From NCBI RefSeq assembly GCF_000196175.1, contig NC_005363.1:1240001-1304000 (forward strand): a stretch of 64,000 nt of DNA, read 5' to 3'. The notes under the pieces are model-generated. The model saw only the letters and a program-made list of their open reading frames with translations, was not told the origin of the DNA and made no database searches. Source of the DNA: Bdellovibrio bacteriovorus HD100. GTDB lineage: Bacteria; Bdellovibrionota; Bdellovibrionia; Bdellovibrionales; Bdellovibrionaceae. Of the stretch, positions 23,927 through 27,450 are shown one piece after another (position 1 is the stretch's first letter; each line of letters begins with the position of its first letter). Position numbers and translations under genes: made by a program.

Positions 23927-24056
23927 TCTTTTCCGCTTCCTGTGCGAAAAAAAAATGATTTCCCCTGCATTTTTCTTTAGACAAACGACTGGACTTGGAT
24001 ACACACTAAGCTCATTCGAGATAAACAAGACTAAAAACCTAACGGAGGAATTTCGA

Positions 24057-24479
24057 ATGGCAAAAGCAAAAGCTACAAAAAAAGCTACTACTAAGAAAGC
24101 AGCTCCTAAAAAAGCTGTAGCAAAAAAAGCAGCTCCAAAAGCAGCTAAAAAAGCGGCTCCAAAAGCAGCAGCTAAAAAAGCAGCAGCTCCAAAAAAAGCA
24201 GCAGCTCCTAAAAAAGCAAAAACTGCTCGTAAACCAAACGCAGCTTTCATGAAAGCGTTGACTCCATCTGCAGCTTTGGCAGCAGTTGTTGGTGCTTCTC
24301 CACTTCCACGTACTGAAGTTGTTAAAAAACTTTGGGCTTACATCAAGAAGAACAACCTTCAAGACACTAAGAACAAAAGAAACATCAATGCTGATGCAAA
24401 ACTGAAAGAAGTTTTCGGCGGCAAAACTCAAGTTTCTATGTTCGACATGACTAAACTAGTTTCTAAACACCTTAAGTAG
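24057..24479 (+). CDS. SWIB-domain protein with histone-H1-like Lys/Ala tail
   Basis: A 140-residue nucleoid-type protein. Residues 1-60 are almost only Lys, Ala, Pro and Thr (repeats of KKA and KKAAPKK), like histone H1 tails or chlamydial Hc2. Residues 62-140 form a SWIB/MDM2 fold (FMKALTPSAALAAVVGASPL, PRTEVVKKLWAYIKKNNLQD, KRNINADAKLKEVFGGK). The tail should bind DNA without sequence specificity. ATG 24057 has a strong SD (GGAGGAATTTCGA); the longer upstream frame is not coding-like. The tail uses AAA and GCT/GCA codons nearly exclusively, making it AT-richer than its neighbours. A good terminator follows. Confidence 0.88.
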   Translation: MAKAKATKKATTKKAAPKKAVAKKAAPKAAKKAAPKAAAKKAAAPKKAAAPKKAKTARKPNAAFMKALTPSAALAAVVGASPLPRTEVVKKLWAYIKKNNLQDTKNKRNINADAKLKEVFGGKTQVSMFDMTKLVSKHLK

Positions 24480-25721: not shown

Positions 25722-27137
25722 ATGTCATTGACTACGACGAACGGAAAAACCGCTATGAAGAAAAATGCTAAAATGAAAGCTCCTACAGCAACTAAAACTG
25801 CTGCTAAAACTCCAGTTGTTGACTACCGAGTCAGCAAAGAAGCAATGGAAAACCCAGAGGTTTTCGCAAAGCTTGCTAAATGGGGTCGTGAAGAAATCAA
25901 GATTGCTGAAACTGAAATGCCAGGTTTGATGGCTCTTCGTAAAGAGTACAAAAAACAGCAGCCTTTGAAAGGCGCTCGTATCGCTGGTTGCCTTCACATG
26001 ACTATCCAGACAGCGGTTCTGATCGAAACGCTAGTTGAGCTGGGTGCGGAAATCCGCTGGTCTTCTTGCAACATCTTCTCCACTCAGGATCACGCCGCAG
26101 CGGCTATCGCGGCAGCGGGCATTCCGGTATTTGCATGGAAAGGTCTGACTGAGCAGGAATTCAACTGGTGTATCGAACAAACTATCGTGGGTTGGGGCAA
26201 AGAAGGCTTCAACATGATCCTGGACGACGGTGGTGATTTGACGAACATGATGCACGAGCCTCGTTTCGCCAAAGAAATGAAGAAAATCATCGGTATCTCT
26301 GAAGAGACAACCACCGGTGTCCACAACCTGGAAGTCCTTGTAAAACAGGGTAAACTGAAAGTTCCAGCGATCAACATCAATGACTCTGTTACCAAATCCA
26401 AGTTCGACAATCTGTACGGTTGCCGCGAATCTTTGGCTGACGGTATCAAACGTGCAACGGACGTGATGGTTGCCGGTAAGATCTGCGTTGTTGCGGGTTA
26501 CGGCGATGTGGGTAAAGGTTCTGCGCACTCTTTGCGTGGACTGGGCGCCCGCGTTCTTGTGACTGAAATCGATCCAATCTGCGCGCTTCAGGCGGCAATG
26601 GAAGGTTTCGAAGTGACAACGATGGAAGATGCAGCTCCATTGGGTGACATCTTCGTAACAGCGACTGGCTGCTGCGACATCATCACTGACAAGCACTTCA
26701 TGAAAATGAAAAACAACGCGATCGTGTGCAACATCGGTCACTTCGATATCGAAATCGACATGGCTTGGTTGAACAAGAATTCCAAAATGCGTGAAGTGAA
26801 GCCACAAGTGGACATCCACACTTTGAAAAACGGCAAACAAGTCATCATCCTGGCTAAAGGCCGTTTGGTGAATCTGGGTTGTGCTACGGGCCACCCAAGC
26901 TTCGTTATGTCCAACTCCTTCACCAATCAGGTGTTGGCGCAAATGGAACTTTTCAACAACCGTGACAAGTACCAGGACATCGCTGTTTACCGCTTGCCTA
27001 AGCATTTGGACGAAAAAGTGGCGGCATTGCACTTGGATAAATTGGGCGTGAAGTTGACTAAACTTTCTTCCAAACAAGCCAAGTACCTGCACATGAGTCC
27101 TCAAGGCCCGTTCAAGCCTGAGCACTACCGTTACTAA
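25722..27137 (+). CDS. ahcY: Adenosylhomocysteinase (SAH hydrolase)
   Basis: A 471-residue NAD-dependent enzyme that splits S-adenosylhomocysteine to adenosine and homocysteine, keeping the methyl cycle running. Family landmarks: [46 protein letters not shown], the NAD motif [21 protein letters not shown], and the invariant C-terminal [18 protein letters not shown]. It carries an unusual N-terminal extension of about 30 residues rich in Lys, Ala and Thr before the normal start of homology (VDYRVSK). AAGGA is the SD for ATG 25722. No SAH riboswitch fits in the 33-nt gap after map. A strong terminator lies inside a large inverted repeat downstream. Confidence 0.96.
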
Positions 27138-27145
27138 TCAACCCG

Positions 27146-27312
27146 CAAGGGAAGAGGGGCTGCAGAGAGCGTGAAACTCTCGGACAGTCCTCGCGCAAGG
27201 GAGCCTTCGTGGCTCCCTTTTTTTTTGCCGTTGGACGATCTTCTTTATTATTGCACTTGTGACTGGCGCTGTGGAACTCGGTTTCACGCTCTCTGCAGCC
27301 CCTCTTCCCTTG
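27146..27312. repeat. Perfect 32-bp inverted repeat flanking the ahcY terminator
   Basis: The left arm is 27146-27177 (begins CAAGGGAAGAGGGGCTGCAG) and the right arm is 27281-27312, its exact reverse complement over 32 bp. The 103 bp between hold the terminator at 27197-27226. The arms begin 9 bp after the ahcY stop codon. I see no transposase or coding frame inside. Confidence 0.9.
27197..27226 (+). terminator. Rho-independent terminator after ahcY
   Basis: AAGGGAGCC-TTCGT-GGCTCCCTT followed by a T run: a 9-bp GC-rich stem, nested between the arms of the 32-bp inverted repeat. Confidence 0.92.
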
Positions 27313-27450
27313 CTGGTGATCAGCTTGCTTGTGCTGTGCTTTTTGAGTCTACGGTGCGGTATTGTTGGTGACTTTTTCTGTTTTTGATTTGTTCTGTTAA
27401 GGACTTTAGGGGCGGGTTTTGTAATCAAGATTATTTCACACCTTTAGTGC
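27313..27450. other. Intergenic stretch without recognisable gene
   Basis: Between the right inverted-repeat arm and the chemoreceptor promoter I find no supported coding sequence or RNA gene. The complete ahcY-to-chemoreceptor gap is 388 bp. Confidence 0.5.

Follow-up and report, generated by a model that had tools for sequence, protein, structure and literature searches.

The window, that is, the whole stretch of 64,000 nucleotides of Bdellovibrio bacteriovorus HD100 that was analysed, contains an inverted repeat immediately behind ahcY. The preliminary description reported a perfect 32-bp inverted repeat that encloses an intrinsic terminator after the ahcY stop. Recomputation of the arms confirmed it: 27146-27177 and 27281-27312 are exact reverse complements of 32 bp with a spacing of 103 bp. 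When one mismatch is allowed, the repeat grows to 27141-27177 and 27281-27317 (37 nt, 97%). Because the ahcY ORF ends at 27137, the full left arm starts 3 nt past the stop codon. The next gene beyond the hairpin is also co-directional. The parts of the locus are as follows.

25722..27137, + strand: ahcY, an ORF named after the preliminary description and our own reading of the sequence; co-directional with the element and immediately preceding it
27141..27177, + strand: left stem arm from the repeat search, perfect over 27146-27177
27180..27193, + strand: left core block TCGGACAGTCCTCG, conserved, its bases mostly invariant in the 19 HD100 copies
27197..27226, + strand: intrinsic terminator in the loop, AAGGGAGCC TTCGT GGCTCCC TTTTTTTTT, with a T run; presumably the terminator of ahcY
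27227..27268, no strand assigned: remaining variable loop, read from the sequence
27269..27279, + strand: right core block CTGTGGAACTC, conserved
27281..27317, + strand: right stem arm, in which 27281-27312 is the perfect reverse complement of 27146-27177

Compared with shuffled sequence, the fold of the ahcY hairpin is far from chance on the + strand (z = -10.4) and on the - strand (z = -12.6). Elsewhere in the window, the + strand ORF at 23955-24479, judged by eye, combines a histone H1-like N-terminus rich in lysine and alanine with a SWIB-like C-terminus.

The 200-bp ahcY region was searched against the HD100 genome (one contig, 3,782,950 bases), and many short matches to TCGGACAGTCCTCG were observed. 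Exact copies of this 14-mer number 15, three more differ from it by one change, and one further copy (L036) has the left block with two changes. Each of these 19 copies lies inside a long near-perfect inverted repeat whose arm sequence differs from site to site. A second block, CTGYGGAACTY, is located just within the right arm. The covariance model R1 (A1), which was built from the 19 copies, finds 21 elements in this genome. The ahcY inverted repeat belongs to a family of non-coding hairpins dispersed in about 20 copies over this genome. The core consists of TTCRGACAGTCCTCGC on the left and GCTGYGGAACTYG on the right. It is predicted to form a bulged helix, AGTCC/GGAACT with unpaired TTCRGAC, atop a stem of 20-35 bp.

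One reading in the preliminary description made the arms the ends of a small non-autonomous element with the terminator as its cargo, and a search for other copies of the arm was proposed. A 28-nt piece of the arm has no second site in the genome (3.78 Mb) when up to 3 mismatches are allowed; it is the inner core blocks that recur, in about 21 copies. The dispersed family agrees with a small element. The copy at genome position 1545172 matches the ahcY element at 77% over 111 bp, with the same loop and terminator and with unrelated arms. The part of the proposal that concerns the ends does not hold, since the conserved parts are internal and the arms are not conserved ends.

The sequence of the stem is free and its pairing is kept, as shown by compensated stems. 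Among the 19 HD100 copies, all 21 modelled stem pairs change on both sides, and the cells changed on both sides number 171, versus 55 in shuffles. Shifting the partner by one base lowers pairing from 90% to 39-47%. The core helix AGTCC/GGAACT is invariant and 100% paired in the same copies. Across 87 distinct copies from the genus, Watson-Crick pairs make up 98% at stem positions 11-20, and mismatches concentrate 2-4 and 9-10 positions away from the core.

Among close relatives, an orthologous stem has either hardly changed or been replaced block by block on both arms; double changes between orthologues come in clusters and consist mostly of transversions. Stepwise compensation via wobble pairs is disfavoured, because it would not give transversion-rich block co-changes. 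Apart from six pairs, mostly weak, no arms are common to non-orthologous loci, and for this reason spread by gene conversion between copies was rejected. The block-wise, transversion-rich co-changes and the arms unshared between loci together suggest that one arm serves as the template from which the other is renewed. The arms are unique to each locus in Bdellovibrio and partly shared in some Coriobacteriia genomes. At least six loci in one Eggerthellaceae genome have near-identical copies with the same arms, which appears to be a sign of copying within the genome.

The ahcY 3' region was recovered from all but one of the 24 genomes of the genus. The element lies behind ahcY in about a dozen of them, always in the same orientation. 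The preliminary description had named diverged arms in relatives as evidence against its readings. The arms do diverge, but they do so jointly: they are swapped wholesale between species and their complementarity is retained. Arm changes of the same kind were observed in orthologous sets at 16 other loci. Half-elements are also present. At ahcY, G006 has the left half only and G002 the right half only, and at the L012 locus G006 keeps only the left half.

No clean pre-insertion (empty) site was found and no target duplication was identified at the elements. The sole core-less site is the counterpart of the HD100 locus L019 in G006 (L314), where both arms are fused into a short hairpin; it is probably the result of a later deletion via GGCTCT direct repeats. 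At the ahcY loci of G003 and G019 (L075 and L081), an insertion of 60-70 bp interrupts the left core block, with GACAGT on one side and CCTCGCG on the other. This insertion has two more variable hairpins, and its conserved CCTTYGGACTTCGCGAAAA is otherwise absent from the 24 genus genomes.

The exact left block is present in 23 of the 24 genus genomes (22 of the 23 besides HD100), while the reversed-pattern control has 1 match in total in the 24 genomes. R1 matches were observed in 31 of 66 genomes of the bacterial family and in 39 of 291 genomes of the phylum, where they are patchily distributed (18 of 163 sampled genera). For GTDB genomes, the compact pattern ACAGTCCTCGC-N(0-30)-CTGCGGAACTYG was used. 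It is found in at least 118 stretches, mostly from other phyla. Among the matches listed, Coriobacteriia are foremost, and Lachnospiraceae, Omnitrophota, Chloroflexi, Myxococcota, Planctomycetes and others are also represented. The compact pattern has no match in viral contigs. The arms are clearly paired in 212 of 225 scored copies drawn from all groups. In the shortest forms the loop is TTC only (L183).

Some copies have a particular context. In G058-G060, the element (L162-L164, L170, L171, L175, L176, L179-L181) lies within a unit of ~270-330 nt. These units have a second, outer long stem, which is variable between copies, and conserved joining loops GTTCAGGGTTGGGCGGGGATCTTCC and GGAAGACCGAGCTTGAATTG. 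On the minus strand near 2582 of a Myxococcota contig (L226), core units separated by identical short spacers appear to form a tandem array. In one Eggerthellaceae genome, GTCATCCTGAGCG..GCGAAGGATC repeats are found within ~100 bp after copies (L194, L202, L253, L258, and L268), and these repeats look like CGTC-type REPs.

The placement relative to genes is strongly oriented. In 76 cases a co-directional CDS on the left has its end no more than 70 nt from the core, versus 17 mirror-image cases; genes were called from ORF length alone, so that individual cases may be wrong. The stem mostly starts 0-20 nt past the stop codon. For 19 copies the 3' end of a tRNA (Leu, Arg, or Pro) precedes the element by at most 75 nt, in most of them by 17-29 nt, whereas no tRNA gene is found on the other side of the element. 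Some stems pair with the CCA end of the tRNA. No neighbouring gene family recurs beside the element across phyla.

The types of mismatch in the stem were counted with one copy per arm cluster. At positions 6-25, the motif strand has 63 A.C against 11 G.T mismatches (49 versus 10 clusters, p = 1.4e-7). At positions 1-5, C.T-type mismatches are observed in 64 clusters and purine-purine mismatches in 8. Read on the complement of the motif strand, these mismatches become G.U and G.A, pairs that folded single strands tolerate or favour. In the hairpins of intrinsic terminators, which function as sense RNA and lie in this same set of sequences, the bias is reversed (GT 12, AC 4). The counts given for the family draw in part on related species, an effect that clustering lessens and does not remove. 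The loop of 14 copies, including that of ahcY, contains a terminator on the sense strand, and none was found on the other strand. A sense RNA from these copies would lack one arm, because the terminator would end the transcript before the right arm. The A.C/G.T bias and the loop terminators thus make sense RNA unlikely as the selected molecule. The mismatch types indicate that it is the complement of the motif strand that has retained its ability to fold.

A folded complementary DNA strand and an antisense RNA both remain as candidates, since antisense RNA gives the same mismatch signal. DNA is preferred, because by eye there is no conserved promoter-like sequence outside the arms. Predicted folding energies favour the complementary strand weakly, and with DNA parameters alone. 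The scarcity of wobble pairs was dropped as proof of pairing at the DNA level, as such pairs are also scarce in the terminators of these sequences.

A search for the core letters in the running text of papers returned no relevant paper. Tagged REP palindromes are the nearest described kind. The tagged REPs (GTAG- and CGTC-) measure 20-40 bp, with stems conserved family-wide and one end that carries an unpaired tag, and Y1 (RAYT) transposases often act on them (PMC3733652). Like REPs, the elements are dispersed, non-coding intergenic hairpins with a short conserved core, found in several phyla and often near ORF ends. In contrast to REPs, they have a locus-specific stem of 20-35 bp and an apical conserved part, and they show no dependence on Y1. 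G001, G011, and G014 have 5-8 copies and no PF01797 match, while G022 has a match and no copy. A Y1/RAYT transposase was rejected as the partner, because its presence and absence do not match those of the element.

The attC sites of integrons lie behind stop codons and form an imperfect hairpin with conserved bulges and a variable terminal loop, in which the complementary strand is folded. The present element is similar in its position behind co-directional genes and in that the complementary strand has apparently been kept folding, to judge from the mismatch types. It differs in that the conserved core is apical rather than basal, and its neighbours are stable housekeeping genes, not cassettes. 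Identity with attC was rejected: the R boxes RYYYAAC/GTTRRRY are found on either strand in 1 of 227 elements, and in 2 of the shuffled ones. MITEs and other palindromic mobile elements are likewise small, non-coding and multi-copy with inverted arms, but in MITEs the arms are conserved termini accompanied by target duplications, whereas the arms here differ at nearly every locus. An intrinsic terminator is also a hairpin right behind a gene, and the ahcY copy contains one in its loop, but no T run follows the long stem of the element, whose mismatches show the reverse signature. We call this a new, apparently unnamed dispersed hairpin family, probably a folded-single-strand element working like attC or REP sites.

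The best explanation, which we hold tentatively and at somewhat below even probability, is that of a dispersed hairpin whose complementary strand adopts a single-stranded fold recognised by a factor, and whose arms are recopied and selected. The results above show the existence and spread of the family, its compensated stems, its placement and orientation, and its strand bias; from there we infer that such an element would be mobile and would have a function. The strand complementary to the core motif, that is, the template strand of the preceding gene, would fold as a single strand. It would then be recognised by a putative protein factor, of host or mobile origin, as attC sites and REPs are, and this factor would spread or maintain the element. 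The arms would stay perfect through recopying of one from the other by template switching in the hairpin, and selection for pairing near the core would add to this. In the ahcY copy, the loop of the hairpin contains the presumed terminator of ahcY. No recombinase or transposase was found tied to the element; Y1 is present in element-free genomes and missing from three element-bearing ones. A wider form of this idea is rather unlikely. It would make the elements a hitherto unrecognised cross-phylum class of folded ssDNA sites, inside-out compared with attC, which target the 3' ends of genes and tRNAs, are moved or maintained by a putative structure-specific recombinase, and have their stems continually rewritten on both arms.

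A structured RNA, either a 3' UTR or tRNA trailer or an antisense RNA, that acts in 3'-end formation, stability or processing is a real possibility. The distances from stop codons and tRNA ends and the pairing with the CCA end are consistent with it, and RNA motifs typically combine variable stems with an internal loop that is conserved. The G.U-type exchanges also fit an RNA from the complementary strand, but the sense strand has the wrong exchange, A.C and not G.U, and in the 14 copies with a loop terminator the sense RNA ends before the right arm. As for an antisense RNA, the lack of a conserved promoter-like sequence outside the arms argues against it, as does the next gene, which by eye is often co-directional. 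Rfam 15 covariance models gave no match in the window or in copies from several phyla, and the published coordinates of attack-phase sRNAs (PMC3627812) do not overlap with any copy.

It is improbable that the element is a functionless relic hairpin, its arms perfected solely by template switching during replication (quasipalindrome correction) and drifting by block replacement. Such a process would account for the joint, clustered and transversion-rich arm changes, the arms unique to each locus, and the half-elements in relatives. It would not account for identical core blocks across phyla, for mismatches that persist at fixed distances (positions 2-4 and 9-10) in unrelated stems, or for the strict orientation behind genes. 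It is hardly credible that the repeat is peculiar to ahcY, whether as an invertible switch or as a simple inverted duplication of recent date, both raised in the preliminary description. Perfect arms in one genome agree with this, but about 20 sister copies are present, and in all element-bearing relatives the ahcY copy has the same orientation and different arms. The switch is unsupported because the core has only one orientation behind ahcY among these relatives. The duplication of the ahcY 3' region is unsupported because the stem lies outside the CDS and is completely different in relatives.

The core is common to predatory Bdellovibrio, gut Coriobacteriia, Omnitrophota, and Chloroflexi, and its orientation behind genes and tRNAs is fixed, which implies a common partner. 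The stems, which differ by whole blocks on both arms between close orthologues, are a natural record of how perfect inverted repeats get rewritten. The same data can test hairpin template switching against stepwise compensation as the driver of stem evolution in bacteria.
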